A DNA stretch of 64,000 nt, taken from Necropsobacter rosorum (GTDB lineage Bacteria; Pseudomonadota; Gammaproteobacteria; Enterobacterales; Pasteurellaceae). The stretch is from contig CCMQ01000026.1 in the NCBI GenBank assembly GCA_000751835.1, positions 1-64,000 of the forward strand, read 5' to 3'. A program made the position numbers and the translations under genes. This document shows, piece by piece, positions 15,382 through 33,761 of this stretch. The notes beneath the pieces were generated by a model, which saw nothing but the letters and a program-made list of their open reading frames with translations, was not told the origin of the DNA and did no database searches. Numbering within the stretch: position 1 is the first letter of the stretch; every line of letters begins with the position of its first letter.

Positions 15382-16884
15382 ATGCAAATCCCCTATTTAG
15401 AGTTTGACAACATCAGTAAACGCTTCCCCGGTGTCAATGCCCTGCAACATGTATCGTTTAAATGTTACGAGGGCAAAGTCCATGCGCTGATGGGCGAAAA
15501 CGGTGCGGGCAAATCCACGCTGCTGAAGATTTTAAGCGGTAATTATTTGCCGACCGAAGGAAAATTATCTATCGGCGGCAAAATACTGACCTTTAAAAAT
15601 ACCAAAGAGGCGCTGCTGGCGGGGATTGCGATTATTTATCAGGAACTGAATATCGTGCCGGAAATGACGGTTGCGGAAAATCTGTGTTTAGGGCAACTGC
15701 CGAACAGATTCGGGGTCATCGATAAGCAGGCGATGATGGAACGGACACAGTATTATTTAGATAAACTGGCATTATCCATTGCGCCGGATACGCCGCTAAA
15801 AGCGCTTTCTATCGGGCAATGGCAAATGATCGAAATCGCCAAGGCGCTGAGCCGCGGCGCCAAAATTATTGCCTTCGACGAACCGACCAGCAGCCTGTCC
15901 GCCCCGGAAATCGAAAAACTGTTTGCGGTCATTCGCGAGCTGAGAGACGCCGGAAAAGTGATCCTTTATGTTTCGCACCGCATGGAAGAAATTTTCCGTA
16001 TCAGTGATGAAATCACCGTACTGAAAGACGGTCAGTTCGTGGAAACGTTTTCCGATTTAAGCAAAATCAATCACGACATACTGGTACGCAGTATGGTCGG
16101 TCGTCATCTCGGCGATATTTATCGCTATCGTGCGCGTAAGCTCGGCGAAATTCGTTTAAAAACGACCGCACTTTGCGGCACCAAACTGAAAGGCGATTTT
16201 AATCTGACCGTGCGCGCCGGTGAAGTGTTGGGGCTGTTCGGCTTAGTCGGCGCCGGTCGTTCGGAGCTGCTGAAAATCATCTTCGGCGCCGATCCGATGA
16301 CACAGGGCAGCCTTGAGCTGGATGGGCGGCCCGTCACAATCCGCCGGCCGAAAGACGCCATTGAACAAGGTATTGTGCTTTGTCCGGAAGACCGGAAAAA
16401 AGAAGGGATTATCCCTACCGCGACAGTGGCCGAAAATATCAATATCAGCGCCAGACGTCTGCATAACCGGCTTAAATTCATTATTAATGAATCCTGGGAA
16501 CGTGAAAATGCGGAAAAACAGCGCCGCCAAATGAATGTCAAAACGCCGTCCGTCGAACAGCTGGTGGTGAACCTGTCCGGCGGCAATCAGCAAAAAACCA
16601 TTTTAGGCCGTTGGCTGTCGGAAAATATTAAGGTGCTGTTACTGGATGAACCGACCCGCGGCATTGATGTGGGCGCCAAATCGGAAATTTACGATTTAAT
16701 TTTCAAACTGGCCGATGAAAAACTGGCGATTATCGTGGTTTCCAGCGATTTACCCGAAATTATCGGCCTGTCGGATCGGATTATCGTCATGCGGGCGCAG
16801 CAAATTACCGGCGTGGTGGAACGAAAAGACGCCACGGAAGAAACCATTTTGAAACTGGCGATGGTTGACAGCAAAGTCGCTTAA
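15382..16884 (+). CDS. araG: L-arabinose ABC transporter ATP-binding protein AraG
   Basis: A 500-residue double ATPase (CUT2 family) energising arabinose import. The N-terminal half has [12 protein letters not shown] and IIAFDEPTSSLS. The C-terminal half has [15 protein letters not shown] and LLLDEPTRGIDVGAK. It starts after AAAGAGGAATTCGAT and is followed 15 bp later by araH. The gene carries an uptake signal (16165-16173) that encodes part of a variable linker between the two ATPase halves. Identity as AraG, not another CUT2 ATPase, comes from its place between araF and araH. Confidence 0.94.
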   Translation: MQIPYLEFDNISKRFPGVNALQHVSFKCYEGKVHALMGENGAGKSTLLKILSGNYLPTEGKLSIGGKILTFKNTKEALLAGIAIIYQELNIVPEMTVAENLCLGQLPNRFGVIDKQAMMERTQYYLDKLALSIAPDTPLKALSIGQWQMIEIAKALSRGAKIIAFDEPTSSLSAPEIEKLFAVIRELRDAGKVILYVSHRMEEIFRISDEITVLKDGQFVETFSDLSKINHDILVRSMVGRHLGDIYRYRARKLGEIRLKTTALCGTKLKGDFNLTVRAGEVLGLFGLVGAGRSELLKIIFGADPMTQGSLELDGRPVTIRRPKDAIEQGIVLCPEDRKKEGIIPTATVAENINISARRLHNRLKFIINESWERENAEKQRRQMNVKTPSVEQLVVNLSGGNQQKTILGRWLSENIKVLLLDEPTRGIDVGAKSEIYDLIFKLADEKLAIIVVSSDLPEIIGLSDRIIVMRAQQITGVVERKDATEETILKLAMVDSKVA

Positions 16885-16899
16885 CTGAGGAGAAAGAGG

Positions 16900-17874
16900 A
16901 TGAATACACCAACTTCTGCGCAAAAACATCATGCCGGCACGCTGAGCAAACTCTGGAATGCTTACGGAATGCTGCTTATTTTCTTTGTGATTTTCATCGG
17001 TTCCTGTCTGTTTATTCCGAATTTCGCCACGCTTATCAACATGAAAGGGCTGGGGCTGGCCATTTCCATGAGCGGTATGGTGGCGTGCGGCATGTTATTC
17101 TGCCTTGCCGCCGGGGAGATCGATTTATCCGTCGCTTCCGTCATCGCCTGTGCCGGAGTGGTCTGCGCGGTGGTGCTGAATGCCACCCAAAGTCTTGTTT
17201 TAGGCATCGGCGCCGGGCTGGGTTTAGGCGCGTTAATCGGTTTGCTGAACGGTATTGTGATCGCCAAACTGAAAATCAACTCGCTGATTACAACCCTCGC
17301 CAGTATGCAGATTGCGCGTGGTCTGGGCTATATTATCTCCGACGGCAAAGCGGTGGGGATCACCACGGAAGCGTTTTTCGATATCGGTTATCGATCCGTT
17401 TTCGGCATTCCGCTGCCGATTATTTTCACCATTCTCTGCATCGCGCTGTTCGGTTTTCTGCTTAGCAAAACCACCTACGGACGCAATACGCTGGCGATCG
17501 GCGGTAACGAAGAGGCTTCCCGTCTGGCGGGCATTAATGTTGATCGCACCAAGCTGATTATTTTTGTCGTATCGGGACTGGTTTCCGCCTTGGCCGGCGT
17601 TATTTTGGCGGCGCGCATGACCAGCGGGCAGCCGATGACGTCTATCGGTTTTGAACTGGTGGCGATTTCCGCCTGTGTTCTCGGCGGTGTGTCCTTAAAC
17701 GGCGGGGTGGCGAAAATTTCTTTCATCATTGCCGGCGTGCTGATTCTGGGCACCATTGAAAACGCCATGAATCTGCTGAATATCTCACCGTTCGCACAAT
17801 ATGTGGTGCGCGGATTGATTTTGCTTATTGCGGTGATTTTTGATAAATATAAACAGCGATTTATCAACGCCTAG
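16900..17874 (+). CDS. araH: L-arabinose ABC transporter permease AraH
   Basis: A 324-residue inner-membrane permease close in length to E. coli AraH (328). Hydrophobic segments begin near residue 22 (AYGMLLIFFVIFIGS). The family regions FCLAAGEIDLSVASVIAC and GGNEEASRLAGINVDR (ATPase contact) are present. It follows araG by 15 bp after a GAGGAGAAAGAGG site, and araC follows after 21 bp. Confidence 0.94.
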   Translation: MNTPTSAQKHHAGTLSKLWNAYGMLLIFFVIFIGSCLFIPNFATLINMKGLGLAISMSGMVACGMLFCLAAGEIDLSVASVIACAGVVCAVVLNATQSLVLGIGAGLGLGALIGLLNGIVIAKLKINSLITTLASMQIARGLGYIISDGKAVGITTEAFFDIGYRSVFGIPLPIIFTILCIALFGFLLSKTTYGRNTLAIGGNEEASRLAGINVDRTKLIIFVVSGLVSALAGVILAARMTSGQPMTSIGFELVAISACVLGGVSLNGGVAKISFIIAGVLILGTIENAMNLLNISPFAQYVVRGLILLIAVIFDKYKQRFINA

Positions 17875-17895
17875 AGGGTACAGGAGGGATGCGGG

Positions 17896-18750
17896 ATGAA
17901 CCGACACGAAAGCCACCAGCAGCCGGACCCGCTGCTGCCCGGTTACAATTTCGGCGCTTATCTGGTGGCCGGCTGTACGCCGATTGAAAAAGGCAAAGCG
18001 CTTGATTTTGTGATCAATCGCCCGAACGGCATGAAAGGCTATATTATTAATCTGACGGTCAAAGGCAAAGGAACGGTGTTCAGCGGCAAACAGGCCTTCG
18101 ACTGTTCGGAGGGGGATTTACTGCTGTTTCCGCCAAGTGCGGTACATTATTATCATCGTTGCCGCACCGCAAACGACTGGTTTCACCAGTGGATTTACTT
18201 TCGCCCGCGCGCTTTATGGACTGACTGGCTGAACTGGACGGACAGCGTCAATCATGTCGGCAGGCTGACGGTCAGCGATCCGCAGCTGTATCGGGAAATC
18301 CGCCGCTTATTCCGCCGCATCGAAAGAGAATACAACTCCGGCGGTTTATTTTCCGAGGAAATGTCCATGTGCCTGCTGGAGCAGCTGCTGATCACATGCT
18401 TTAAACTGGATCCGGCCAATAAACAGCGAATGTTGGATCCGCGCGTGCTGTCCACCTGCCATTTTATTACCGACAATCTGGACAAAAACCATAAAATCGC
18501 CGAAATTGCCGCCCATATTCATATGTCGCCGTCCCGTCTGGCGCATTTGTTTTCCCGCCAGATCGGCAACGGTATGATCAAATGGCGGGAAGAACAGCGG
18601 ATGATCAAAGCTCAGCATTTACTGCATACCTCCAATGCCCCGATTTACCATATCGCCCGCCAGCTGGGATATGACGACCAGCTTTATTTCTCCCGTCTGT
18701 TTAAACGTTACACCGGTTTGAACCCGTCGGCATACCGTAATTCAAGATAA
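17896..18750 (+). CDS. araC: Arabinose operon regulator AraC
   Basis: A 284-residue AraC protein. The N-terminal cupin (about 1-170) binds and senses L-arabinose, and two C-terminal helix-turn-helix motifs bind DNA. Recognisable parts are the N-terminal arm region (DPLLPGYNFGAYLVAGCTPIE), WFHQWIYFRPR, HMSPSRLAHLFSRQIG (first HTH) and ARQLGYDDQLYFSRLFKRYTGLNPSAYR (family signature region). It is the last gene of araFGH-araC, an arrangement unlike E. coli where araC is divergent from araBAD. Together with the candidate half-sites at 14120-14134 and 18860-18874 this predicts control of both ara transcription units. Confidence 0.94.
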   Translation: MNRHESHQQPDPLLPGYNFGAYLVAGCTPIEKGKALDFVINRPNGMKGYIINLTVKGKGTVFSGKQAFDCSEGDLLLFPPSAVHYYHRCRTANDWFHQWIYFRPRALWTDWLNWTDSVNHVGRLTVSDPQLYREIRRLFRRIEREYNSGGLFSEEMSMCLLEQLLITCFKLDPANKQRMLDPRVLSTCHFITDNLDKNHKIAEIAAHIHMSPSRLAHLFSRQIGNGMIKWREEQRMIKAQHLLHTSNAPIYHIARQLGYDDQLYFSRLFKRYTGLNPSAYRNSR

Positions 18751-18859
18751 CTTATCCGCTTGATTTATCAATAAAAAAAACAGTCTCGCCAACAACAAAA
18801 TCCCGTGCATAACAACCCAATCCTGCGTGCGTTCACAGATTCGCCGACACAGCCGTTTT

Positions 18860-18874
18860 GTCCATATATATAGC
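18860..18874 (+). promoter_or_regulatory. Candidate AraC half-site upstream of araB-like gene
   Basis: GTCCATATATATAGC, within a stretch (18851-18877) resembling the E. coli araI half-site, lies 100 bp before the araB-like gene in the 224-bp gap after araC. The same element occurs inverted upstream of araF. No convincing sigma70 -35 is present in the gap, consistent with activation. Confidence 0.5.
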
Positions 18875-18974
18875 GGTTTCCCCCCTACCTCTCAGGATGA
18901 AATTGCGATTAACATTTCCCTTATCCTAAACCGCAGGTATCATTGATTCGCTCACATATCGTTAAGGGGGAAAT

Positions 18975-20576
18975 ATGCAGTCTAACAAAGCGCTTATTGA
19001 TAGCGGCGACACCGCTATCGGCATTGAATTCGGTTCCACGCGAATCAAAGCGGTACTGGTTGATCAACAGGGCAATATATTGGCAAGCGGTGGCGTAAAC
19101 TGGGAAAATCAGTTTATCGACGGCATCTGGACCTATTCCCAACAGGCTATCCGGCAGGGCTTACAGCAGGCTTATCAGGCGCTGGCACAATCGGTGCGGC
19201 AGCAATATCATACGAATCTGACCTCGGCGCGGGCGATCGGTATCAGCGGTATGATGCACGGCTATCTGCCGTTCGACAGCCAAAATAACCTACTGGTGCC
19301 GTTTCGTACCTGGCGCAATAATTTTACCGCAGAATCGTCGCAAAAACTGACCGCACTTTTTAATTATCCTATCCCGCAGCGCTGGAGTATCGCCCACCTG
19401 TATCAGGCGATTCTGCGCCGGGAAGCGCATGTGGCGCACATTGATTATCTCACCACTTTAGCCGGCTATGTGCATTGGCTGCTCAGCGGAGAAAAAGTGT
19501 TGGGCATCGGCGAGGCCTCGGGCATGTTTCCGATTGATCCGCACACGCAATCTTATCAGCAATCCATGCTGGATGACTTTGACAAGCTTATCGCCGCGCA
19601 GAATTATCGCTGGAAAATCAAACAGATCCTACCGCGGGTGTTAGTCGCCGGACAATGCGCGGGCTGTCTCACCGACGCGGGCGCACGCTTGCTGGATCCG
19701 AGCGGGCAGCTACAGGCCGGCATTAAAATGTGTCCGCCGGAAGGCGACGCCGGCACGGGAATGGTCGCCACTAACAGTATCAGAGAAACCACCGGCAATA
19801 TTTCCGTCGGTACCTCCGCTTTTGCCATGGTCGTGCTGGAAAAGGCGCTGTCAAACGTATATGAACAACTGGATATGGTCACCACGCCGGCGGGCAAACC
19901 GGTGGCGATGGCGCACGCCAATAACTGCACATCGGACATTAATGCGTGGATCGCGCTTTTTCACCAAACACTGACGGTATTCGGCGTGAAAGCGGATATT
20001 GATCAGGTCTATGAAACATTGTTCCTGCATGCGCTGGAAGGCGATGCCGACTGCGGCGGACTTTTATCTTACGGTTTTTATTCCGGCGAACACAACGTCG
20101 GTTTAACGGCGGGCTGCCCGACCTTTATGCACCCGGCAAACAGCCGGTTTAACCTTGCCAATTTTATCCGCGTTCATCTCTACAGCGCGTTCGGCGCGAT
20201 GAAACTGGGAATGGACATTTTGATGCAGCGGGAAAACGTAGCCGTCACGCAAATTCTTGCCCACGGCGGCATGTTCAAAACCAAACAGGTTGCCTCGCAC
20301 ATTCTGGCCGGCGCACTTAACGTGCCGATTGCGGTTATGAATACGGCGGCCGAGGGCGGCGCCTGGGGGATTGCTCTGCTGGCCAACTATCTGGCGTACG
20401 CCCCCGCTCAATCACTGGAACAGTATTTAAACGAAACGGTGTTTAAACAAACCGCACTTTCCGTCAGCCGGCCGGACTCGGCAACGGCGCAGGGATATGC
20501 GCGATTTATGCAGCGTTATGTGCGCGGTCTTCCCGTCGTCCAGGCCGCGGCAACATTCAGTTCGGATCAACAATAA
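18975..20576 (+). CDS. FGGY-family kinase, probable non-canonical L-ribulokinase
   Basis: A 533-residue FGGY carbohydrate kinase. By context it phosphorylates L-ribulose made by AraA. The phosphate-binding start IGIEFGSTRIKAVLVD and the C-terminal ILAHGGMFKTKQVA and AAEGGAWGIALLA regions place it in the superfamily. The sequence does not resemble E. coli AraB (566 residues), however, and looks like a separate ribulokinase-type branch sometimes annotated as xylulokinase. It is preceded by AAGGGGGAAAT and followed 33 bp later by araA. Two uptake signals lie inside (19350-19358, 20451-20459). Kinase activity is near certain; L-ribulose specificity is inferred from linkage to araA and araFGH. Confidence 0.8.
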   Translation: MQSNKALIDSGDTAIGIEFGSTRIKAVLVDQQGNILASGGVNWENQFIDGIWTYSQQAIRQGLQQAYQALAQSVRQQYHTNLTSARAIGISGMMHGYLPFDSQNNLLVPFRTWRNNFTAESSQKLTALFNYPIPQRWSIAHLYQAILRREAHVAHIDYLTTLAGYVHWLLSGEKVLGIGEASGMFPIDPHTQSYQQSMLDDFDKLIAAQNYRWKIKQILPRVLVAGQCAGCLTDAGARLLDPSGQLQAGIKMCPPEGDAGTGMVATNSIRETTGNISVGTSAFAMVVLEKALSNVYEQLDMVTTPAGKPVAMAHANNCTSDINAWIALFHQTLTVFGVKADIDQVYETLFLHALEGDADCGGLLSYGFYSGEHNVGLTAGCPTFMHPANSRFNLANFIRVHLYSAFGAMKLGMDILMQRENVAVTQILAHGGMFKTKQVASHILAGALNVPIAVMNTAAEGGAWGIALLANYLAYAPAQSLEQYLNETVFKQTALSVSRPDSATAQGYARFMQRYVRGLPVVQAAATFSSDQQ

Positions 20577-20609
20577 CGGGATTCGGTTTATATCGTAAGG
20601 AGCATTGCA

Positions 20610-22097
20610 ATGGAATTTATCAAGCAACTGGAAGTCTGGTTTATCGTCGGCAGCCAGCATCTTTATGGCGAACAAGCATTACGGCAGGTAAACCGGCATG
20701 CCGAACAGATTACCGCTTATCTTAACCGGCAACAGCCGTTTATTCAGATTAAATTAAAAGCGCCGGCCACCTGCGCGGAAGATATTCTCGCGCTGTGTCA
20801 GGCGGCGAACAATACCGACCGCTGTGCCGGAATCATCGCCTGGATGCACACCTTCTCGCCGGCGAAAATGTGGATTGCCGGCTTATCCCAGCTGAGCAAA
20901 CCGCTGCTACAGTTTCATACTCAATTCAACCGGAACATTCCCTGGAATGACATTGATATGGATTATATGAACCTGCACCAAACCGCCCATGGTGATCGTG
21001 AATTCGGCTTTCTGGCGGCAAGACTGCGCAAACCGCGCACCATTGTGGTCGGTCACTGGCAAGCGGCGGCGGTACGGCAAAAACTGGATCGCTGGATGCG
21101 CGTCATCGCCGCGATTTACGATCAAAAACACCTAAAAGTGGCGCGCTTCGGCGACAATATGCGCGAAGTGGCGGTGACCGAAGGCGATAAAGTGGCGGCG
21201 CAAATCACATTCGGTTACAGCGTGAACGGCTATGGCGTCTATCAATTGGCTGACGCCGTTAATCAGGTAAAAGAAGAAGATATTGCCGCCTTAGTCAAAG
21301 AATACGAAACCGATTATCAACTGGTCGACAGTTTGCGGAAAAACGGCGCAAAACGCACCGCACTTTTAGACAGCGCGCGTATTGAATTGGGCTTAAAGGC
21401 ATTCTTGCAACAAGGCGGTTTCAACGCCTTTACCGATACCTTTGAAAACCTCAACGGTCTGAAACAGTTACCCGGCCTGCCGGTTCAGCGTTTAATGGCG
21501 CAAGGCTACGGCTTCGGCGCAGAAGGCGACTGGAAAACCGCGGCGCTGGTACGCGCGCTGAAAGTGATGAGCGACGGCTTAGGGCAAGGCACCTCCTTTA
21601 TGGAAGATTATACCTACGATCTGGACGACAATAACGAAGTGGTGCTGGGCGCGCATATGCTTGAAGTCTGCCCGTCTATCGCACGGGACAAACCGGTGCT
21701 GGATATTAAACCGCTGGGCATCGGCGGCAAGGACGATCCGCCCCGTTTAATCTTCAGCGCCAAAGCCGGCCCGGCAATCAACGCCACCATCGTGGATATG
21801 GGCAATCGCTTCCGGCTGATCGTAGCCGATCTGAACGCCATCGAAAAACCGCAGGAAATGCCGCACTTACCGGTGGGCCATGCCTTCTGGCAATTACAGC
21901 CGAATTTTGATGTGGGCACGCAAGCCTGGATTCTTGCCGGCGGCGCACATCACAGCGTGTTCAGTCTGGCTATCGACGCCGATATGCTGCAAACTTTCGC
22001 TGATTATTTCGGTATCGAGTTTATCCATATCAACCGCCGCACCACACTTGCCGAGCTAAAAAACCAGCTACGTTGGAACGACGCGGCATACGCATAA
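20610..22097 (+). CDS. araA: L-arabinose isomerase AraA
   Basis: A 495-residue manganese-dependent isomerase converting L-arabinose to L-ribulose in the cytoplasm. Landmarks are the N-terminal EVWFIVGSQHLYGEQAL, GIIAWMHTFSPAKMWI, GEGDW-type region (GFGAEGDWKTAALVRALKVM) with the metal-ligand Glu, EDYTYDL, GAHMLEVCPSI and GGAHHSVFS with the metal-ligand His. Length and text fit the E. coli enzyme (500). Preceded by AAGGAGC. No araD follows: the next gene is convergent. L-ribulose-5-phosphate epimerase must therefore be encoded elsewhere, for example by an araD or ulaF paralogue. Confidence 0.96.
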   Translation: MEFIKQLEVWFIVGSQHLYGEQALRQVNRHAEQITAYLNRQQPFIQIKLKAPATCAEDILALCQAANNTDRCAGIIAWMHTFSPAKMWIAGLSQLSKPLLQFHTQFNRNIPWNDIDMDYMNLHQTAHGDREFGFLAARLRKPRTIVVGHWQAAAVRQKLDRWMRVIAAIYDQKHLKVARFGDNMREVAVTEGDKVAAQITFGYSVNGYGVYQLADAVNQVKEEDIAALVKEYETDYQLVDSLRKNGAKRTALLDSARIELGLKAFLQQGGFNAFTDTFENLNGLKQLPGLPVQRLMAQGYGFGAEGDWKTAALVRALKVMSDGLGQGTSFMEDYTYDLDDNNEVVLGAHMLEVCPSIARDKPVLDIKPLGIGGKDDPPRLIFSAKAGPAINATIVDMGNRFRLIVADLNAIEKPQEMPHLPVGHAFWQLQPNFDVGTQAWILAGGAHHSVFSLAIDADMLQTFADYFGIEFIHINRRTTLAELKNQLRWNDAAYA

Positions 22098-22243: not shown

Positions 22244-23503
22244 CTAAAATTTATAATCCTTTTTATCAATCCCGTATTTTCGCATACGCAAGTACAGTTT
22301 CTTGCGTGGGATATCTAAATACGCCGCCACATCGTTAATTCGTCCCTGATAAAAAATCAACGCATCTTCAATAATTTGTTTCTCGTATTCTTCAATTTGA
22401 TCATGTAAAGGATTAACGGTTTCCGGCTTAATAATCGTTGCCGGCAAACCCGTGTGGATACTTTGCTGTGAAAACAGTCCGATAGAATATAACGCGGCTA
22501 CGTTAATCAGCTCCTTTACATTTCCCGGCCATGCCAGCGTCATCAAATGGCGCAATAATTTTTTAGATGGTTCAATATATTCTTTATTCAGTTTTGCACA
22601 ATTACTACGAACATAATGATTAAAAATGGCGGGAATATCGGCCGGATGTTTTTTCAGCGCTTGTAATTCCACTTGTGTATGAATCAATAGATAATATAAT
22701 TCGGGATTTAATGATTGCTGCGAAATAAGTGACAGTAACGATAAATCACTAATAATAATTAAACGTACGCTTTTTGCATCAGAATTTAATTTATTCGCCA
22801 GATATTGCTGTTCCGCATCGGATAAATAATGAATGTTTTTAAGAATAAGAGATGTTTGTTTCGCCTGTAACAGCAAATTTTCAATATCAGTTGAGGTATC
22901 CGGTAAACATTCGTAGTACACAAATGGCGATTTTTTGTATTCGCTCAGTTTATGCAGATAAGTCGCAGCCAGATGTCGCCCGGTTCCAATCTGCCCCCAC
23001 AAAAAAACCGGTATGTTACTGCAAGCCAGCTTTTGCAGCTGATGACGTAAAGATTGAATATATTCAGTATTACCAATAAATTTTTCATTCAGCTTATCCA
23101 ATTGCCACTGACGTCGTTCGATAATCCGTATGCGCGTATCTAAAGCCCGCTTGACTTGAACTAATAATCTTTCCGGGGATAACGGCTTTTCTAAAAAATC
23201 AAGCGCGCCTTTTTTCACGGCCTCAACCGCCATTGGAATATCGCCGTGTCCGGTAATCATCATAACGGGAATCTGAGAATCTGTGTGCATAATCTGTTCC
23301 AGAACCTGTAATCCTGATATATCGGGCAAAAGTACATCGCACAATACGACACCCGGCCAACATGCCGGAAGTGACGGTAAAAAACGTTTCGGATCCGCAA
23401 TTGCCAATACCCGATAACCTTCCTGACTAAGCAAATCCTGGTAAGATTCCAAAATATCGATATCATCATCAATAAGTAATACATTACAATCTTCAATTTG
23501 CAT
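22244..23503 (-). CDS. PgtA/DctD-like response regulator with degenerate AAA+ domain
   Basis: A 419-residue regulator built like NtrC-family proteins. A receiver (LLIDDDIDILES, phosphorylation site CDVLLPDISG, lysine in FLEKPLS) is followed by an AAA+-like middle domain and a C-terminal Fis-type HTH (INDVAAYLDIPRKKLYLRMRKYG). The middle domain is degraded. The P-loop reads GQIGTGRH where GESGTGKE is expected, the Walker B region reads SLILKNIHYL without Asp-Glu, and no GAFTGA sigma54-contact motif is present. It therefore cannot be a normal sigma54 activator, in line with the scarcity of RpoN in Pasteurellaceae. Salmonella PgtA is a similar case. Its start overlaps the kinase gene's end. It probably activates the divergent afu-type operon. 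Confidence 0.82.
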   Translation of the reverse strand: MQIEDCNVLLIDDDIDILESYQDLLSQEGYRVLAIADPKRFLPSLPACWPGVVLCDVLLPDISGLQVLEQIMHTDSQIPVMMITGHGDIPMAVEAVKKGALDFLEKPLSPERLLVQVKRALDTRIRIIERRQWQLDKLNEKFIGNTEYIQSLRHQLQKLACSNIPVFLWGQIGTGRHLAATYLHKLSEYKKSPFVYYECLPDTSTDIENLLLQAKQTSLILKNIHYLSDAEQQYLANKLNSDAKSVRLIIISDLSLLSLISQQSLNPELYYLLIHTQVELQALKKHPADIPAIFNHYVRSNCAKLNKEYIEPSKKLLRHLMTLAWPGNVKELINVAALYSIGLFSQQSIHTGLPATIIKPETVNPLHDQIEEYEKQIIEDALIFYQGRINDVAAYLDIPRKKLYLRMRKYGIDKKDYKF

Positions 23504-25484
23504 TATCAGCTACCTTAAATGTCAATATAATCAATGCATTGTGTGTTAATGTCGAGGCAATCAACAATTCGCCCCGACAGTGTTGCATAATGGACTGACT
23601 AATGGATAAGCCTAAACCTAGGTTAATATCTTTACTAGAGGAAAACGGTTGTAATAATTTTTCAGTCAGAGACCAACCTTTTCCGTTATCAGATATCCAT
23701 AAACAAAGTGTATCCTTATCACTGTGCTGCTGAAAAACCTGAACATTCGGTTCAAAATGTTCGCAAGCCTCCAGCGAATTTAAAAATAAATTGACAAAAA
23801 CCTGCTCAATCAGCACATCTTCACCCAATACCTGTGGTAAATCAGGCGGGACGATGAGTCGGGCATGCCGGTTATGATGTTTGGATTCCAGCAATTCCCA
23901 CGCATTCTGAATACACTGATTAATATTGACGGTTTGTAATTTTCCCGATCCCTGACGAGAGAACTGGCGCAGCCGTTTAATAATTAATGCAATTCGTTCC
24001 ACCAAATCACTTAACTTATTTAAATAATTCAATGTAGCCGCATTATCTTGTTTATTCACCGTTCGTTTAGCACTGAATAGATACGCGTTCATCGCATTAA
24101 GCGGTTGCGTAATTTCATGACTGATAGAAGTCAACGTTTTTCCTACCACCGCTAATTTTGCGGTTTGCATCAGCTCATTTTGCGTACTGACTAACTCATT
24201 TTCAATCAGAATACGATGCTGAATTTCTTCCGTCAATATGTGATTGCGTCGTTCCAGTTCCTGATTTTTTTTATTCATTTCAAATAAAAAAAGTCGTAAC
24301 AACTTACCAATCCGACCTAATTCATCATGCCCATAGATAGGTACTTTCACATTTTGTTTACCTTTAGATAATTGAACTACAGCCTGATTCAACAGTTCAA
24401 AACGTTTAAGTAAACGTAAACGGATGTAGATAAAATTAACGGCAATCAACAAAATACAGGCAAATATCATGGAAATCAGCACTAAAATGCCATTAAACCG
24501 CGTACTTTTTTCTACAATACTATGTAATAAACGGAGTTGATTTTTACTGTTTCCGATCCGCTCATCAATTTGTTCACGAAAATCATGAAAATGCGTATTA
24601 CTTTGTTCCGTTAAGTACTTGCGCTCTTGCTCTAGATGGTATCTTTGTTGAAATAACGCAGGAAGTTCATGTCCGTTCAGCCCGATAGCAATCAATTCAT
24701 TGAGTATTTGCTGAATGGAATATGTCGATGAATGAATATCAAGTCGCTGAATACGATTATTCACTAATAAAGAAAGATAATTTAAATAATTATCCGAATC
24801 CATTGCCGAGTAAGGAATTGATTCCGTTAGCCGTTTTTTTAACTCAGTAATAATCTGCTCTTCATAATTCATCAGCTCATATACCAATAACAATTCTTGC
24901 TGAACTTGCTGTAATTGCTGAATATCGGGCGTATCTTTTACACCTTGCAGCAGTTGATTTGCCAATGTTGATTGCTGCCAGCTCATTTCCTGCAGCAATG
25001 CCGTAACATCACTATGAAAATCGTTATGTAACCAATTGATTCTGATACTCTGTTTATTTAGTTCATCTTTCAGCGTAAGCGTTAAGTTCATATTATCCGA
25101 GAACTGTTCTAATAACGCGGATAATTTATCCAGTAGTGTCAGCAGCACATAATCCGGATTATTATCCGCCTCAATCAACAGCGTCTTGCGTAAATCATTC
25201 AAATGTTTTTTCGTATGGTTATACCAAGTAATTTTTTCCGCCGTGGTTTTAACACCGATTAAACGTACAAACGCATTTTTCACCTCATTTAGCTGATCCT
25301 CCATATAAAAAGCAGCCTGTACTTTTGGAAAATCCTGATCCAGTGCAAAATTAATTTCTATTCGCTGTTGATGCCAAGTATAAAGACCTATCACACCAAC
25401 GAATAAACAAAGCAGCGCACTGACTAGAAATGATAATTGCAGCGTAATACTAATATCCAACCGTTTGAACCAGCGTTTTATCAT
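23493..25484 (-). CDS. PgtB/DctB-like sensor histidine kinase
   Basis: A 663-residue membrane kinase. TM1 is near residues 15-35. A long helical periplasmic domain rich in Gln and Leu (about 40-315) follows, with TM2 near 325-350 (LVLISMIFACILLIAVNFIY). Then come HAMP, a coiled coil, a HisKA box (SISHEITQPLNAMNAYLFSA, near residue 455, as in DctB) and an ATPase domain ending in the GLGLSISQSIM G box. It overlaps the regulator gene by 11 bp and the preceding binding-protein-like gene by 4 bp (ATGA), so the three are translated together. The arrangement matches PgtC-PgtB-PgtA of Salmonella, which senses phosphoglycerates and induces their transporter. Confidence 0.85.
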   Translation of the reverse strand: MIKRWFKRLDISITLQLSFLVSALLCLFVGVIGLYTWHQQRIEINFALDQDFPKVQAAFYMEDQLNEVKNAFVRLIGVKTTAEKITWYNHTKKHLNDLRKTLLIEADNNPDYVLLTLLDKLSALLEQFSDNMNLTLTLKDELNKQSIRINWLHNDFHSDVTALLQEMSWQQSTLANQLLQGVKDTPDIQQLQQVQQELLLVYELMNYEEQIITELKKRLTESIPYSAMDSDNYLNYLSLLVNNRIQRLDIHSSTYSIQQILNELIAIGLNGHELPALFQQRYHLEQERKYLTEQSNTHFHDFREQIDERIGNSKNQLRLLHSIVEKSTRFNGILVLISMIFACILLIAVNFIYIRLRLLKRFELLNQAVVQLSKGKQNVKVPIYGHDELGRIGKLLRLFLFEMNKKNQELERRNHILTEEIQHRILIENELVSTQNELMQTAKLAVVGKTLTSISHEITQPLNAMNAYLFSAKRTVNKQDNAATLNYLNKLSDLVERIALIIKRLRQFSRQGSGKLQTVNINQCIQNAWELLESKHHNRHARLIVPPDLPQVLGEDVLIEQVFVNLFLNSLEACEHFEPNVQVFQQHSDKDTLCLWISDNGKGWSLTEKLLQPFSSSKDINLGLGLSISQSIMQHCRGELLIASTLTHNALIILTFKVADNAN

Positions 25485-26716
25485 AATTTTTCCACGGCTT
25501 TAATAAATTCGATTTGCTGATTTATAAAGAACTGCTGCCAATGAAACAATTCCCGTTCCGGATTAAAATTATCCAAATACTGTGATTCGGACGATTGCTC
25601 CGCACTAACAGGAAGTGCGGTCAGAATTTTACACAATTCGGGCAACCGGCGATTTAATTGCCGCTCTTTCTGATAAAGCATTTTCCAGTTTTCTTGCAGC
25701 TGGTTAAGCCGATAAATGATTTGTTGTTCAAATAAGACCTTTACCAAATATTGCCGCTTAATCAACAAGTTATAATCAACTTTCGGCTGTGCTAATAAAT
25801 ATTTCTGGATATTGCTATTCGGTGAACTATCCGGCAGAGAGCGAATCGGCAGTTTTCCCATCTGTCCATCATTCAGGATCATTTGCCCCCGTTCACTTAA
25901 AATAAATTCGATAAATTTTTGCGCCTGCTCTTTTTTCCGACTGCGGTTCAAAATAGCAATAAACGTCGGCGAAACCGGAAAAGACTCAAAATACTGAAAT
26001 GTCAAATGTGCCGTATTCTTCTGTTTCAGAAGATAAGCATAATTATCTATCGTAATACCGACCGCGCCGATATTTGCCCGCACTTTATCCACCACTCCAA
26101 AGCTACGAGAAGAAACCGTACCTGCATTTGCCATAATCTGATGAATTAATTCCCAACCTGACTGCCAACCATATTTTTGCAGCAACGCCTCAATAATAAT
26201 GTGATTGGTGTCCGAACGGGTCGGGCTGCTGATCATAATCATGCCTTGCATATTCGGATCAGTTAAATCCTGCCAAGAGGTCGGTGCAGATATCTTTCGT
26301 TGCGCCAATAACGCCGTATTGACTAACATGCCGTATCCTGACAAGGCAAACGCGAGAGTCGTATTTTGCAACAGAGAAGGAACAAATTGCTTATCGTAAC
26401 GATTTAATGCTGCCGGTAGCGCAGCGAGTCGTTGCTTTTCCTGCAAATTATAAAATAACATCGGGGAAGAACTCAGAATAAGGTCAACCTCCACATTATT
26501 AGGTTTTTCCGAAGACAATAACTGATTAAGGGATGAGCTGGTCCGATTTAACGTCGTCACCTGAAACGCCCCCGGCTGTTTATTCCACTCATTCAGCAGA
26601 TGCGCAATCCCCTCCGGGGAAAACGTAGTACCGATGACCAACTCGTTAGCCGAGCTAATTAAAGTACATATGCTGAATAAGAACGTAATGAAACAATATT
26701 TTACCCGATACCACAT
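25481..26716 (-). CDS. PgtC-like periplasmic sensor-accessory binding protein
   Basis: A 411-residue exported protein resembling iron/sugar-phosphate class solute-binding proteins (LVIGTTFSPEGIAHLLNEW, VDLILSSSPMLFYN, ARANIGAVGITIDNYAYL-like region). The C-terminal extension is unlike that of transport proteins (about 330-411). I start it at MWYRVKYCFITFLFSICTL, a clear signal peptide. A longer frame adds 28 residues without one. It is first in a three-gene operon with the kinase and regulator, so it probably presents a ligand to the kinase, as proposed for PgtC. Together with the afuA-type gene across the divergent gap, the locus has two binding proteins: one for sensing and one for transport. 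Confidence 0.78.
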   Translation of the reverse strand: MWYRVKYCFITFLFSICTLISSANELVIGTTFSPEGIAHLLNEWNKQPGAFQVTTLNRTSSSLNQLLSSEKPNNVEVDLILSSSPMLFYNLQEKQRLAALPAALNRYDKQFVPSLLQNTTLAFALSGYGMLVNTALLAQRKISAPTSWQDLTDPNMQGMIMISSPTRSDTNHIIIEALLQKYGWQSGWELIHQIMANAGTVSSRSFGVVDKVRANIGAVGITIDNYAYLLKQKNTAHLTFQYFESFPVSPTFIAILNRSRKKEQAQKFIEFILSERGQMILNDGQMGKLPIRSLPDSSPNSNIQKYLLAQPKVDYNLLIKRQYLVKVLFEQQIIYRLNQLQENWKMLYQKERQLNRRLPELCKILTALPVSAEQSSESQYLDNFNPERELFHWQQFFINQQIEFIKAVEKL

Positions 26717-27108
26717 TATGATTTCCCAAGCACAATCCGGATAACTTATCTTATCGAAAAAAATATCAGAAAATGCAGATATTTTTGTGATCAGATTCAA
26801 AAAAATAAAATATATATTTCAATAACTTCAGCAAAATATTGAGTTATTTTTGACCCATTTCCCATCAAAGAATACGAAATTTGGGTAAAAACTTTCCAAT
26901 GTGATTATTTTATCTTATCAAACATGATAAATTCGTCCTTTTTTGACCGGCTTTGGAATAAATTTGAAATAAAAGTGCGGTCTTTTTTTTTGTATTTTTT
27001 CAGCATATCTTTGTTTTCAGTTTCATTTGAAATGAAACGGCCCACAGCAAGCATTATCTCATCACCATATTTTCGTTAATTTTATCAATAGGTAATAAGG
27101 AGCAAATC
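26717..27108. promoter_or_regulatory. Divergent control region, pgtC-like / afuA
   Basis: AT-rich 392-bp interval without a gene. An imperfect dyad, ACCCATTTC / GAAATTTGGGT (26853-26886), is a plausible regulator target. A perfect TTATCA-N4-TGATAA dyad (26915-26930) follows. An uptake signal with a T-run (26973-26989) lies before afuA. TTGACC occurs at 26943-26948, but no good -10 sits at the right distance, which suits an activated promoter. AATAAGGAGCAA is the afuA ribosome-binding site. Confidence 0.5.
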
Positions 27109-28098
27109 ATGAATAAAAAATTATCTTTCGCCGTAATTGCCTTAGGTTTAGGCATAGCATTAAACACCTTTGCCAATACGAATGAAAAACTCATTGTCTA
27201 TACATCGATGAAAGAATCACTGATTGGTGCGCTTAAAACACAATTTAACGCCAAATATCCCGAAGTGGAAATGGATTATCAATCCGCCGGTGCCGGCAAG
27301 TTAATGGCGAAAATCGCCGCAGAAAAAGAATCCGGTCAAATTATGGCGGATATTATCTGGACCAGTGAAGTTCCCGATTTCTTTAAGATGAAAGACAACG
27401 GCATGCTGGAACCTTACATATCGAAAGAAATCGAGCATATTGTCAATCCGATTCCTAATTTTGACGGCTCATTCACTCCAATCCGTTTAGGCACATTAGG
27501 CATTGCCTATAATACGCGCTTTGTCAAAACACCGCCGGCTCAATGGTCCGACATTTTAGATAAAAAATATAAAGGCGCGTTCGGAATTGCCAACCCGGCA
27601 TTATCCGGCACCTCTTACATGAGCGTGGCATTATTGAAATCCGCATTCGGCTGGGAATTCTTTGAGAAAATGAAAGAGAACAAAGGAAAAGTGGGTAAAG
27701 GCTCCGGACAGGTGGTGGACGATACGGCATCCGGCGATTTGCTGGCTTCTTTAGCCGTTGATTATATAACCAACGATAAAATCAAAAAAGGGGCGCAGCT
27801 AAAATTAGTCTATCCACAAGAAATGTTGGTTATCCCAAGTCCTGCCGCGATTTTTAAAGGCACTAAAAACTTAGCGACCGCACAGAAATTCATTGATTTT
27901 CTCCTCTCTGAAGACGCACAAAAAATTATTGCGCAAGAAGGCACCTTACCGGTAAGAAAAGATGTTGCACCGTTGGAAAGTATGCCATCGGTCGAAGATG
28001 CCATTAATCGCGCAATTCCGATTGATTACCAGTCAATCTTATCTGAAAAAGAAAATACCGTGAAAAAATTTAGCCAGATTCTTCAAGGTCGTAACTAA
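27109..28098 (+). CDS. afuA: AfuA-type periplasmic sugar-phosphate binding protein
   Basis: A 329-residue binding protein with a signal peptide ending near residue 22 (NTFA, then NTNEK). The LIVYTSMKESLIGALKTQF start and the SAGAGKLMAKIAAEKESGQIMADI region are characteristic of AfuA. This protein was first annotated as an iron-binding protein. In Actinobacillus pleuropneumoniae and relatives it was later shown to bind hexose phosphates such as glucose 6-phosphate. It starts the operon afuA-ATPase-permease-ATPase, divergent from a Pgt-like sensing operon. The context favours phosphorylated carbohydrates over ferric iron, though phosphoglycerate-like ligands are equally possible. No tyrosine pair typical of FbpA iron sites was obvious by eye. 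Confidence 0.85.
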   Translation: MNKKLSFAVIALGLGIALNTFANTNEKLIVYTSMKESLIGALKTQFNAKYPEVEMDYQSAGAGKLMAKIAAEKESGQIMADIIWTSEVPDFFKMKDNGMLEPYISKEIEHIVNPIPNFDGSFTPIRLGTLGIAYNTRFVKTPPAQWSDILDKKYKGAFGIANPALSGTSYMSVALLKSAFGWEFFEKMKENKGKVGKGSGQVVDDTASGDLLASLAVDYITNDKIKKGAQLKLVYPQEMLVIPSPAAIFKGTKNLATAQKFIDFLLSEDAQKIIAQEGTLPVRKDVAPLESMPSVEDAINRAIPIDYQSILSEKENTVKKFSQILQGRN

Positions 28099-28122
28099 CC
28101 CTCAATAAACAGGATGTGTATT

Positions 28123-29199
28123 ATGGCAACAATCACATTTGAGAACATCAGTAAAACTTTCGGTTCAAATACCGTGTTGAAAGATTTGTCGTTAGTTGTA
28201 AAAGACGGTGAATGTTTCACGCTGCTTGGCCCGTCCGGCTGTGGAAAAACGGTATTACTCCGATTATTGGCAGGCTTTGAAGTACCTGATTCGGGGCGTA
28301 TTCTTATCGATCAACATGTGGTAGCCGATCCCGCCGCCGGCGTGGATGTACAGCCGGATCAGCGTGACCTTGGGGTCGTTTTCCAAGACTATGCAGTTTG
28401 GCCGCATATGAGCGTATTTGATAATATCGCCTATCCGCTAAAACTTAAAGCATTGGATAAAGATATTATTCGCCAACAAGTCATGGAAGTTGTTGAGCTC
28501 GTCAATCTAACAGGGCTGGAAAGCCGTTTACCGTCTCAGCTATCCGGCGGCCAACAGCAACGGGTCGCACTAGCCCGGGCGCTCGTAGCCAAACCATCGT
28601 TAATGCTGTTGGATGAGCCATTAAATAATCTTGATGCCAACCTCAGAGAAGAAATGCGCTTTGAGATCAAGGGATTACAGAAGAAACTAGGCATAACGAT
28701 TTTATACGTTACCCATGACCAAGAAATTGCTTTAGCCCTTTCCGATCGACTGGCAATTATGGACAAAAATGGTGCGATTCAGCAAATCGGTACTCCTTGG
28801 GAAATCTATGAGAAATCAGAGAATGAAATGGTGTTTAAATTCATGGGACTGGCAAATTTTTTGCCACTGCGCTATGAAAACGGCCAACATTTTATCGGAC
28901 AGGGTACGCAGGTTTTGCAATGGCAATCACTGCCTGCCGGAAACGGCAAAGTAGGGTGTCGTCCATCCGATATCATTTTGACTAAATCGGGAAACGGTTT
29001 ACGCGGCAAAATCGCACGAACAAGTTTCTTAGGAGCAGTTATGGATTATATGATCGATGTCGACGGCCTGATGTTGCGTACGGAAATATCGACTAATACG
29101 GCATTACAAGACGATCTGATATTTAAAGAGGGCGAGGATTGTTGTGTTAATTTCCATGACCTGTTGTGGTTTTCTAAAACCGAGAAAACAAGGGGGTAG
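28123..29199 (+). CDS. afuC: ABC transporter ATP-binding protein AfuC (first copy)
   Basis: A 358-residue cytoplasmic ATPase. Walker A is GPSGCGKTVLLR, the signature LSGGQQQRVALARAL, Walker B LMLLDEPLNNLD and the switch YVTHDQE. A C-terminal TOBE regulatory region (about 240-358) includes GCRPSDI. The ATG at MATITFENIS has AGGATG spacing better than an earlier ATG nine bases upstream. It powers uptake with the double permease that starts 2 bp after its stop. A second, clearly paralogous ATPase ends the operon. Both share LREEMRFEIK and LGP/GPSGCGKT text. Confidence 0.88.
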   Translation: MATITFENISKTFGSNTVLKDLSLVVKDGECFTLLGPSGCGKTVLLRLLAGFEVPDSGRILIDQHVVADPAAGVDVQPDQRDLGVVFQDYAVWPHMSVFDNIAYPLKLKALDKDIIRQQVMEVVELVNLTGLESRLPSQLSGGQQQRVALARALVAKPSLMLLDEPLNNLDANLREEMRFEIKGLQKKLGITILYVTHDQEIALALSDRLAIMDKNGAIQQIGTPWEIYEKSENEMVFKFMGLANFLPLRYENGQHFIGQGTQVLQWQSLPAGNGKVGCRPSDIILTKSGNGLRGKIARTSFLGAVMDYMIDVDGLMLRTEISTNTALQDDLIFKEGEDCCVNFHDLLWFSKTEKTRG

Positions 29200-29201
29200 C
29201 T

Positions 29202-30899
29202 ATGTCAGCTGTTATTGAGAAAAAAAGTCCGTTTAATGTAGCGAACAGTATTCTTGCCTTATCTATTGGCATCCTAGTCATCGTAGTGGCGGTACCGGTA
29301 TTATTGATTTTTATTAACTCATTTTGGGTTGACGGCCAATTTAATATTACCGATGTCGTAAAAATCCTCAAGCAACAGGAAACCTATGAAGCTTTACTCA
29401 ACTCATTGTTTATTGCCGGCGGCGTGACCATAATGAGTACCATTGTGGGAACCTTCTTTGCCTGGCTCGTTACGCGCACCGATTTACCGTATAAGGGATT
29501 TATGAAAGTCATGTTTCTGGTGCCCTTTATGTTGCCGTCGTTTATTGGTGCATTAGCCTGGAAAATGTTACTTTCTCCACGAGCCGGTTATATTAACCGC
29601 TTCTTTATGGATACATTTGGCCTAGAAGATCCCATATTTAATATTTACAGCTACGCCGGCATTATGGCGGTGGAAACCATGTATCTCTTTCCATTTGTAT
29701 TTATTCAGGTTTGTGGCGCCTTGGAACGCATGGATCCGACACTGGAAGAATCAGCGCGTATTTCCGGTGCTAGTCTGTTCACGATAACACGTAAAATCAC
29801 CATTCCACTGGTTATGCCCAGCATCGTCTCCGGCGCACTATTAATCATGCTTTACTCAATGGCACACTTCGGAACAGTCGCAGTATTAGGCGTGGAAAAC
29901 GGTATTTTTAATATCCCGACCTTAATTTACGAACGAATCCATCAAAGTGCGGGCAGTTTTGAAGCAATTCGCACCGGCACCGTATTGGCTACCGTATTAG
30001 TCGTCACCGCCGCCGTAATCATCTGGCTGCAAAACCGGGTTTTAACTAAAGGGCGTTTCCAGATTATCGCAGGTAAAAGTTTCCGTCCGGTAGAAGTCAA
30101 ATTACGTGGATTACGCATGCCTTTATTGATTATCTGTTTATGTTACATCGCGTTTACCATCATACTGCCAACAGCAACCATCTTTATCGTTGGCGGATTA
30201 AAAACCTATGGATTGCCGGTTACCTGGGAAAATCTGACACTTGAAAACTACAAATTTATTCTGTTTGACTGGCAACTCACTAAAGATGCCATTCGCAACA
30301 GCGTACTTTTAGGTTTAGCGGCTGCCGTAATTACGATGTTTGCTGGCGTAATGATTTCCTACGTTATCGTAAAAATGCGCGTAAAAGGCAAAGGTATTCT
30401 GGAATTTCTCGGTATGCTTCCGTTCTCCGTACCGGGCTCAGTTATCGCCTTAGGTGTGATCCTCGCTTGGAGCGGAAAATTCGGTATTAATCTTTACAAT
30501 ACCGTATGGATTATCCTCATCGCTTACATTGCGCGTTATATGGCTTTCTCGCTAAAAGCCAACTCAGCGGCATTAGAGCAAGTACATGATTCATTGGTCG
30601 AAGCGTCTCGTGCTTGCGGTGCAAGTATGTGGCAGTCACTGAAAGATATTGTCATTCCACTAGTCAGACCGGGGATGATCGCTGCATTTTTCCTGATCTT
30701 CCTGCCGGCATTACGTGAATTGACCGTTTCCGTTATGCTTTACGGCCCGTCAACACGCACAATCGGAGTTGCAATTTATACCCTGAATGAAGATGGTGAA
30801 ACCGTATATTCTGCTGCGCTGGCGGGTATTGCATTAATTATTATCGTTTTTGGTCAAACGATCATTAAACGCTATGCCGAAAAGAAAACACAGAAATAA
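29202..30899 (+). CDS. afuB: AfuB-type ABC transporter permease (fused double domain)
   Basis: A 565-residue inner-membrane permease of the FbpB/AfuB/ThiP type, made of two fused six-helix halves. Each carries an EAA loop: EESARISGASLFTITRKITIPLV in the first half and EASRACGASMWQSLKDIVIPLV in the second. A single polypeptide therefore supplies both membrane halves for two ATPase subunits. It begins 2 bp after the first ATPase gene and is followed 20 bp later by the second. The role is uptake of the ligand captured by the AfuA-type protein. Confidence 0.9.
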   Translation: MSAVIEKKSPFNVANSILALSIGILVIVVAVPVLLIFINSFWVDGQFNITDVVKILKQQETYEALLNSLFIAGGVTIMSTIVGTFFAWLVTRTDLPYKGFMKVMFLVPFMLPSFIGALAWKMLLSPRAGYINRFFMDTFGLEDPIFNIYSYAGIMAVETMYLFPFVFIQVCGALERMDPTLEESARISGASLFTITRKITIPLVMPSIVSGALLIMLYSMAHFGTVAVLGVENGIFNIPTLIYERIHQSAGSFEAIRTGTVLATVLVVTAAVIIWLQNRVLTKGRFQIIAGKSFRPVEVKLRGLRMPLLIICLCYIAFTIILPTATIFIVGGLKTYGLPVTWENLTLENYKFILFDWQLTKDAIRNSVLLGLAAAVITMFAGVMISYVIVKMRVKGKGILEFLGMLPFSVPGSVIALGVILAWSGKFGINLYNTVWIILIAYIARYMAFSLKANSAALEQVHDSLVEASRACGASMWQSLKDIVIPLVRPGMIAAFFLIFLPALRELTVSVMLYGPSTRTIGVAIYTLNEDGETVYSAALAGIALIIIVFGQTIIKRYAEKKTQK

Positions 30900-30919: not shown

Positions 30920-31978
30920 ATGATGAGTTATATTCAACTTAACCATGTAATGAAAAAATTCGGTGATGTGGTTGCCATTCCTGATTTAAACCTGTCCATC
31001 GAAAAGGGAGAATGCTTTTCTATGCTCGGGCCGTCAGGCTGCGGTAAAACAACGACTCTACGAATGATTGCAGGTTTTGAAGATCTGGATTCAGGTGAAA
31101 TTCGCGTCGGCAGCAAATTATTATCCGCCAAAGCAACAAATTTCTACCTGCCTCCGGAAAAACGCAACTTCGGCATGGTCTTTCAGGCTTTCGCAGTCTG
31201 GCCTCATATGACAGTTTATGACAATATCGCATTTCCTTTAGCGCTCAAGAAACTGTCAAAAAACGACATTGAAAAACGGACTAATGACGCATTGAAACAT
31301 ACCAATCTACTTAATGTTGCGCAAAAAAGCCCCGATGATCTCTCCGGTGGAGGAAAACAACGTGTAGCTCTTGCCCGTGCATTAGCACTCAATCCGGATG
31401 TGATGTTACTGGACGAGCCTTTATCCAGTCTTGATCCTCACTTACGCGAAGAAATGCGATTTGAGATCAAAGCATTACAGCAGAAATTCGGTTTCTCAAT
31501 TATTTATGTTACGCATGACCAAGCTGAAGCAATGGCCTTATCAGACAGGATCATGGTCATGAAAAAAGGCATGATTGAGCAAATTGACAGTCCATTGAAT
31601 GTCTATAATAGTCCGGCAAATAAATTTGTTTTTAATTTTATCGGATTATCAAACCAGCTCAACGCAACGTTAAGTTCACAAGGTGTCATATTTCAGGGTA
31701 TCGCGGAAGCATTTAATATTCAACCGATGCCACCGGCAGATTTAATTCAACAAGGTAAAGCCATTCTGGCAACCCGTCCTTCTGAAATAAATTTTGTCCA
31801 CTCCGGTGGCATCCCCGGGGTGGTAAAACGCCGCTCTTATCTGGGTGAAGTGATCGATTATAATATTTTAATCGGTGAACAGGAATTACGCGTACAAAAA
31901 GGACGTCGCGATTCCGGCCCACAGGAAGGTGAAAACTGTCAGGTATCATTTAGTAAACTACATTGGTATCCGGTGTAG
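30920..31978 (+). CDS. Second ABC transporter ATPase of the afu operon
   Basis: A 352-residue ATPase paralogous to the first ATPase of the operon. Walker A is GPSGCGKTTTLR, Walker B VMLLDEPLSSLD and the switch YVTHDQAEAMALSDR, with a TOBE-like C-terminus. Its signature motif reads LSGGGKQRVALARAL, with Gly-Lys where GQQQ is usual. It starts after AAGGAGAAACG. Afu and Fbp operons normally encode one ATPase. Two raises the possibility of a heterodimer with the permease's two different EAA loops, or of alternative partners. A perfect 13-bp dyad lies downstream. Confidence 0.88.
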   Translation: MMSYIQLNHVMKKFGDVVAIPDLNLSIEKGECFSMLGPSGCGKTTTLRMIAGFEDLDSGEIRVGSKLLSAKATNFYLPPEKRNFGMVFQAFAVWPHMTVYDNIAFPLALKKLSKNDIEKRTNDALKHTNLLNVAQKSPDDLSGGGKQRVALARALALNPDVMLLDEPLSSLDPHLREEMRFEIKALQQKFGFSIIYVTHDQAEAMALSDRIMVMKKGMIEQIDSPLNVYNSPANKFVFNFIGLSNQLNATLSSQGVIFQGIAEAFNIQPMPPADLIQQGKAILATRPSEINFVHSGGIPGVVKRRSYLGEVIDYNILIGEQELRVQKGRRDSGPQEGENCQVSFSKLHWYPV

Positions 31979-33732: not shown

Positions 33733-33761
33733 GTCACATACTATCGGAATAAACGGTTTGG

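Follow-up and report, generated by a model that had tools for sequence, protein, structure and literature searches.

A PgtA-like response regulator of Necropsobacter rosorum whose clade lacks the sigma54 motifs: predicted operator and likely sigma70-type activation

The window analyzed here, a stretch of 64,000 nucleotides of N. rosorum, carries a regulatory gene cluster on the reverse strand and a divergent transporter operon on the forward strand. The gene at 22244..23503 (-), an open reading frame of 419 amino acids with an ATG start, encodes a PgtA-like response regulator. Its start is overlapped by the gene of a PgtB-like sensor histidine kinase (23493..25484, -), which has HisKA and HATPase_c domains and matches NF047794 with E 1.1e-175 and 585.6 bits, under the cut-off of 1000. 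Next to it lies the gene of a PgtC-like periplasmic binding-protein sensor (25481..26800, -; SBP_bac_6, E 4.2e-29); its start is uncertain, and the ATG at 26713 would give a signal-peptide-like N-terminus. The first gene of the divergent operon, and the predicted target, encodes an AfuA-like periplasmic binding protein (27109..28098, +; SBP_bac_6), and is followed by the genes of an ABC transporter ATP-binding protein (28114..29199, +; ABC_tran, E 8.7e-35), a fused ABC transporter permease of 565 amino acids (29202..30899, +; BPD_transp_1 in two stretches) and a second ABC ATP-binding protein (30920..31978, +), for which the NCBIfam matches listed (PotA, PhnT2 and others) are below their cut-offs. 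Pentose-type sugar gene clusters lie on both flanks (15382-22097 and 32092-36749); named by reading the open reading frames, they comprise an ABC transporter, an AraC-type regulator, AraA/AraB-like and XylA/XylB-like proteins and a GPH-type symporter.

The first-pass annotation had described the regulator as NtrC-like in domain order, with an intact HTH and a decayed AAA+ domain, and its reading of the motifs holds. Pfam places Response_reg at residues 8-117 (E 3.1e-27), the short model Sigma54_activ_2 at 143-283, AAA_lid_14 at 286-337 and the Fis-type HTH_8 at 370-410 (E 7.5e-8), while the match to the full Sigma54_activat model is limited to residues 143-200. Walker A reads GQIGTGRH (residues 170-177), with Arg for Lys; the P-loop GQIGTGR, residues 170-176, corresponds to 22976..22996 (-), coordinates computed from the residue numbers. 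The Walker B acidic pair is absent, the segment being SLILKNIHY where the aligned GAFTGA-bearing relatives have GTLFLDEIE or near variants, and the segment running from ELFGH to GAFTGA is an alignment gap of about 19 residues. One further loss had been missing from that description: the FRxDLYYRL segment is LNPELYYLL, with both arginines gone. The residues required for catalysis in a bEBP are thus replaced by Arg176 at Walker A, KN at 222-223, and N266 and L272 at the finger positions. The receiver pocket is complete (D12, D13, D56, T84, K106). Recent pseudogene decay was rejected, as the frame is open and both HTH and receiver are conserved, and so was chance or a sequencing artefact, as the same losses are found in 36 distinct relatives.

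The best NCBIfam profile of the regulator is NF047793 (PgtA), matched over the full length with E 6.5e-153 and 509.4 bits. Because this is under the curated equivalog cut-off of 650 bits, which is reached by 5 of the 394 genomes of the order, we use the name "PgtA-like" with no claim of a role as phosphoglycerate regulator. Profile, synteny and tree agree in placing the protein in the PgtA clade. The gene order pgtC-pgtB-pgtA is found in the window, in loci L034-L041 and L114-L119, and in the E. coli locus L122, which is annotated pgtP/pgtC/pgtB/pgtA (loci and genomes are denoted by L and G numbers). The PgtC-like protein shares 54-59% identity with its counterpart in four loci from the same lineage and 42-45% with the protein that takes this position in L035-L041, which are seven loci of enteric type. 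In a tree of 59 of the 110 aligned proteins, from which most DctD-like rows from L053 up were omitted for size, all 37 PgtA-like rows stand on one side of a branch with 100/100 support, and all lack GAFTGA. Loss of this motif amounts to three changes overall in the tree, the other two mainly in alphaproteobacterial rows. A DctD-like Rhodobacteraceae-type group (L052, L063, L104 and similar loci) is without GAFTGA and keeps the Walker A Lys, its loss being independent in the tree. When compared with PgtA of Salmonella and E. coli (NF047793; AAA core 3n70), the window's regulator shares the full-length profile, the PgtB and PgtC neighbours in order, the Arg P-loop, the absence of GAFTGA and the same palindrome upstream of the transporter. 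However, its identity to enteric PgtA proteins is about 41-44%, and the divergent gene, pgtP in the enteric bacteria, is replaced in the window by an AfuABC-like ABC transporter.

The motif losses had been read as the adaptation of an enhancer-binding protein to a genome that lost RpoN, and the suggested check of the genome does bear out one part of this: the N. rosorum genome, listed as 100% complete, has 0 matches to PF00309 and 0 to PF04552, profiles that each match in 4 of 14 control genomes. The rest of the family is similar, with a PF04552 match in 6 of 140 genomes (4 above the cut-off) and none in the other 134. Apart from the regulator, the genome has a single protein that matches Sigma54_activat strongly, the 314-aa TyrR-like L031 (TyrR profile, E 2.1e-119, below its cut-off). 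Nevertheless, decay through RpoN loss in the window's lineage, leaving the AAA+ domain as a mere linker, is highly improbable. GAFTGA is absent from 36/36 distinct full-length clade members, a count that, like the tree, leaves out L026 (broken frame) and L048 (a 184-aa fragment) and in which two identical sequences were collapsed; no full-length Salmonella PgtA was identified among the 36, the nearest named proteins being those of Citrobacter and E. coli. Among 80 named loci, the 12 full-length PgtA-like proteins and one fragment are likewise without it. Of the 394 genomes of the order, searches for rpoN covered the 30 with the best PgtA-profile rows, of which 26 have PgtA-like proteins without GAFTGA and 4 have DctD-like proteins carrying GAFTGA or GSFTSA. 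An rpoN match (E 1.1e-68 or better) is present in each of the 19 sampled PgtA-like genomes from other families, whereas the 7 from the window's family comprise one with a divergent rpoN, one with a short weak match and five with none. Since the losses are common to the clade and rpoN is present in all the sampled members outside the family, GAFTGA loss is an old trait of the clade and no adaptation to RpoN loss; it predates, or is independent of, the disappearance of RpoN in this family.

Nor does the P-loop look like that of a linker, as had been proposed for an AAA+ remnant; that proposal is doubtful. Glycines 170, 173 and 175 are invariant in the 36 clade sequences, and residue 176 is Arg in 35 of them, L011 alone having Lys. 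At Walker B the pair is freely variable (DE in 0/36), and the R-finger arginine is found at the first position in 0/36 and at the second in 3/36. Residue 173 is also the middle P-loop glycine in the Citrobacter and E. coli proteins, and, according to a report on Salmonella Typhi, substitution of Gly173 inactivates PgtA, an effect for which the authors propose a loss of contact with sigma54 (PMC11077982). Because the clade lacks the loop that contacts sigma54, we infer that the substitution damages a pocket or fold that is still needed. The structure prediction that had been suggested is consistent with a preserved fold: the AlphaFold2 model (23 aligned sequences) has pLDDT 88.8 and pTM 0.72, and its AAA+ part superimposes on the solved E. 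coli domain 3n70 with Z 20.7 and an rmsd of 1.7 A over 136 residues. Over receiver plus AAA+, the model matches NtrC4, NtrX and VpsR, the lowest rmsd being that to VpsR, itself without GAFTGA (7v2b; Z 25.5, 5.8 A over 344 residues), a likeness of fold that does not in itself establish function. The sole protein of the 36 with a Walker A Lys, L011, comes from G274, the genome with the divergent rpoN.

The P-loop pocket probably serves folding or oligomerization, or else non-hydrolytic ligand binding. The last option can be extended to a ligand-sensing module, in which the Arg P-loop would bind a nucleotide or phosphometabolite without hydrolysis and gate activation in the way that c-di-GMP does with VpsR. 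The conservation of the three glycines and of the Arg beside a freely varying Walker B, the inactivating substitution and the closeness of the model to VpsR would all fit such a module. The glycines, however, may persist for loop folding alone, and the AAA region is the least conserved of the protein (mean entropy 2.04 bits, against 1.36 for the receiver and 0.90 for the HTH), so that we regard a sensing pocket as tentative and rather unlikely. A shade less likely still is its generalization to the whole clade, namely, that the AAA+ motor was turned into a non-hydrolyzing sensor whose nucleotide- or phosphometabolite-binding Arg P-loop gates a sigma70 promoter at former sigma54 enhancers. If true, these regulators would integrate two inputs, an external ligand through PgtC/PgtB and an internal one through the P-loop.

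The transporter on the other side of the intergenic region had been called afuA, a name that is loosely supported. The solved relatives nearest to its binding protein are AfuA (4r72, E 2.7e-20), 8x1a (E 1e-19) and P5PA (6wce, E 2.1e-19), P5PA thus matching almost as well as AfuA. The system resembles the hexose-phosphate transporter AfuABC of Actinobacillus in its binding-protein family, but differs in having two ATPase genes and in matching P5PA and 8x1a about equally. AfuA binds phosphorylated compounds (PMC4546632), and so does P5PA, to judge from its PDB name; the substrate of the window's transporter is therefore probably an organophosphate. The divergent ABC operon is also found in L034, L116, L117 and L119, where the second ATPase has a match at the same place, and where the binding protein is 77-84% and the permease 94-96% identical to those of the window, one of the four permease matches being partial. 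This permease identity stands in unusual contrast to that of the regulator genes in rate, the latter being about 50-63% identical. In L035, L036, L039 and L040 (enteric-type) and in L114, L115 and L118 (from the family), the gene divergent from pgtC encodes a PgtP-type MFS transporter, identified by name in E. coli and by position and sequence elsewhere. This distribution suggests that pgtP, the usual target, was exchanged for an AfuABC-like ABC transporter in the window's lineage, the regulator keeping its site while the transporter beneath it changed.

That site was first found on comparing the intergenic regions, as a palindrome, TGAGTCAAAnTTGACTCA, with a motif seed selected visually. It reaches 13 bits or more in 38 of 39 clade loci, the exception being L042, where the matrix scan did not find it in place. 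The predicted operator of the window, TGAGTTATTTTTGACCCA (26840..26857, +), scores 20.2 bits, the highest of all 18-mers in the 64 kb, the next scoring 11.1. A weak second operator-like site, TGGGTAAAAACTTTCCAA (26882..26899, +; 9.1 bits), lies 42 bp from the first and may be due to chance. In this the window differs from the 9 of 16 regions that have a pair of sites at a distance of 31-33 bp. We held out the weight matrix by group (AfuABC-type, enteric PgtP-type and Pasteurellaceae PgtP-type), training it each time on the other groups only. The best site then beat 200/200 dinucleotide shuffles in 13/13 intergenic regions, the window's included, in a test that was not fully blind because the seed had been picked by eye from the same regions. 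The limits of these 13 regions were set by hand, and L037, L038, L042-L045 and L122 were scored later. On scanning whole loci, the best 18-mer fell in the region before pgtC in 13/13 loci used for the matrix and in 6/7 of those first left out (E. coli, Serratia, Citrobacter, two Aeromonas and Photobacterium). In a later test with a fixed matrix, the best 18-mer of 8-10 kb sat 97-716 bp before the pgtC match in 19/19 clade loci, the weakest being L140 with 13.3 bits; these loci are partly redundant, as at the regulator L124 repeats L036, a training locus, and L134 repeats L045. A search of the genome returned one full match to the operator pattern, that of the window, and one further place with a mismatch, two places in all versus one for the reversed control pattern at up to one mismatch. 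A search for repeats had by itself missed the operator. Searches of an open-licence library, judged mostly from the listed papers' entries, showed no published PgtA binding site, and no paper in it contains both Gallibacterium and pgtA. The palindrome thus supplies a concrete and testable predicted operator for PgtA-like regulators.

As a control, 67 loci of DctD-type relatives were scored with the operator matrix. The four top scores (L046, L051, L047 and L056) came from positions at the regulator gene's end or just past it. Seven loci with GAFTGA or GSFTSA (these four plus L142, L144 and L145) have the palindrome followed by a sigma54-type box, which starts 77-101 bp from the start of the nearer copy. 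In six of the seven the palindrome is doubled in tandem at a spacing of 32-34 bp; the seventh, L144, has it only weakly (11.1 bits). The -24/-12 box of L047, TGGCACAGGCATTGC, has 0 mismatches, those of L046, L051, L056, L142 and L144 have 1, and that of L145 has 2. Within the clade, a box with at most one mismatch occurs within 200 bp in 1 of 38 loci (L039), a frequency close to that expected by chance, shuffles giving about 0.014 per region. In total, 71 non-clade loci were scored, 37 of them counted as GAFTGA-type, and 13 exceeded 13 bits; such a box is found in 5 of these 13, against 1/38 in the clade (Fisher p 0.003, only a guide because neighbouring loci are related). A tandem palindrome pair followed by a -24/-12 box is present in 6 of the 13, while in the remaining 7 the palindrome lies elsewhere and none has a box with at most one mismatch. 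As for the window, -24/-12 sites with up to two mismatches number 59, against 66.5 expected, and none falls in 26801-27108; a GG-N10-GC pair is present in 3/13 intergenic regions, the window's among them (4 mismatches overall).

The DctD-type activators L046, L047, L051, L056, L142 and L145 are like the window's regulator in domain order, fold and the tandem palindrome before a neighbouring target. What sets them apart is that GAFTGA or GSFTSA, the Walker A Lys, the DE of Walker B and the arginines of FRxDL(Y/F)YRL are all kept, and that a -24/-12 box follows the palindromes. As the seven GAFTGA-type relatives combine palindromes with a box and all but one of the 38 clade loci with the palindrome have no box of at most one mismatch, both regulator and promoter would have lost sigma54 and kept the binding site. 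On the simplest reading, the clade descends from a sigma54 activator at a promoter of this kind; loop and box both disappeared, and the former enhancer sites came to serve a different promoter as its operator. The comparison shows the states before and after a change of sigma factor, a box following the sites where the loop is present and none standing there where it is gone, and it raises the question of what a motor domain does once ATP hydrolysis stops. In L047 (10351-10488), L051 and L056, the predicted targets beside the PgtA palindrome seem, on reading the open reading frames, to be TRAP-type transporters, so the palindrome may be older than the phosphometabolite role.

That PgtA-like proteins still work with sigma54, as suggested for Salmonella PgtA in PMC11077982, hardly seems credible in the light of this comparison. 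The fold is indeed that of sigma54 activators, the PDB and Pfam titles bear the sigma54 name, and a box with one mismatch is present in L039, a clade member. However, the other 37 clade loci have no such box by the palindrome, the loop that contacts sigma54 is missing throughout the clade, and the window's genome lacks rpoN. In addition, a word search of the main texts of two papers on the RpoN regulon of Salmonella returned 0 occurrences of "pgt". Our results would accordingly correct two readings: decay of the regulator through RpoN loss, and the sigma54 suggestion printed for PgtA (PMC11077982).

Activation of a sigma70 promoter by recruitment, also proposed in the first-pass annotation, is the most likely mode, by analogy with precedents and in view of the missing sigma54 promoter, although the sigma70 promoter scans found none. 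Support for it is indirect and consists of the absence of rpoN and of the box, the silence of the RpoN-regulon texts, and the precedents themselves. In TyrR and R. capsulatus NtrC, the nucleotide-binding residues are kept. Proteins without GAFTGA that act with sigma70 include NtrC of R. capsulatus, HupR, TyrR, DhaR and VpsR, as described in PMC3162934 and PMC10274813. Like the window's regulator, these five combine AAA+ and HTH and have lost GAFTGA; they differ in belonging to separate lineages and in responding to other ligands. A search for a -10/-35 pair in 26700-27200 returned 0, against 3.1 expected in shuffles. No shared -10 position emerged downstream of the operator, 13/200 shuffles being as good with -10 weights that are rough.

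A predicted CRP-like site, TGTGATCAGATTCAAA (26786..26801, +), matches 9 of 10 bases of the CRP consensus. Of 14 intergenic regions, 11 have a predicted site with at least 9/10 close to pgtC, and in each of the 11 the score is matched by 0-6 of 200 mononucleotide shuffles. In Salmonella, CRP raises pgtP expression, according to PMC7873081. It could be asked whether the regulator, bound between the two operons, acts chiefly on pgtCBA by repression or autoregulation, the transporter being activated by another factor such as CRP, a division of labour that the extra operator-like site nearer pgtC in five enteric loci (L036, L039, L040, L041 and L122) would also suit. We find this very unlikely, as in the 13 regions some 107-275 bp separate the strongest palindrome from the transporter gene that follows it, and PgtA is described as the activator of pgtP in PMC11077982.

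Taken together, these results make it likely that PgtA-like regulators are sigma70-type activators that act by contact and without ATP hydrolysis, the sigma54 parts having been lost in the clade ancestor and the binding sites kept. By analogy with Salmonella PgtCBA, the PgtC-like protein would sense an external phosphorylated metabolite and signal through the PgtB-like kinase, leading to phosphorylation of the regulator, presumably at Asp56. As a dimer or higher oligomer, the phosphorylated regulator would bind the palindrome between pgtC and the divergent transporter operon and activate an ordinary sigma70-type promoter by contact. Its ancestors would have used the same palindromes as sigma54 enhancers for a -24/-12 promoter. 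In the ancestor shared by all members of the PgtA clade, the catalytic residues and the loop for sigma54 would then have disappeared from the protein and the box from the promoter, with the sites staying in place. The AAA+ core, with its structured P-loop pocket and Arg for Lys, is presumably still needed, and the exchange of pgtP for the AfuABC-like transporter would have come later, in the window's lineage.

Some members of the clade and family deserve separate mention. In L119 (9041-10292, from G368; the same gene as L026), pgtA-like is in two frames, split at a T run, and pgtB, pgtC and the transporter are kept in that genome; a sequencing error, a switch or pseudogene formation could each account for the split. 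In E. coli, transposase remnants flank the pgt locus L122; matches to the Citrobacter pgtA, taken as candidate pgtA genes, occur in 518 of 5,426 E. coli genomes, 432 of them over at least 80% of the length, and 69 of 551 places are plasmid-borne. Finally, the divergent rpoN of the window's family (L120, 1393-3339, in G274:C3; 421 aa; TIGR02395, E 1.5e-56, below the cut-off) adjoins a sigma54-activator fragment and a xylulokinase-like gene, a local pairing of sigma54 with an activator that is rare among relatives largely without RpoN; in G419, a congener of G274, the PF04552 match contains an internal TGA.
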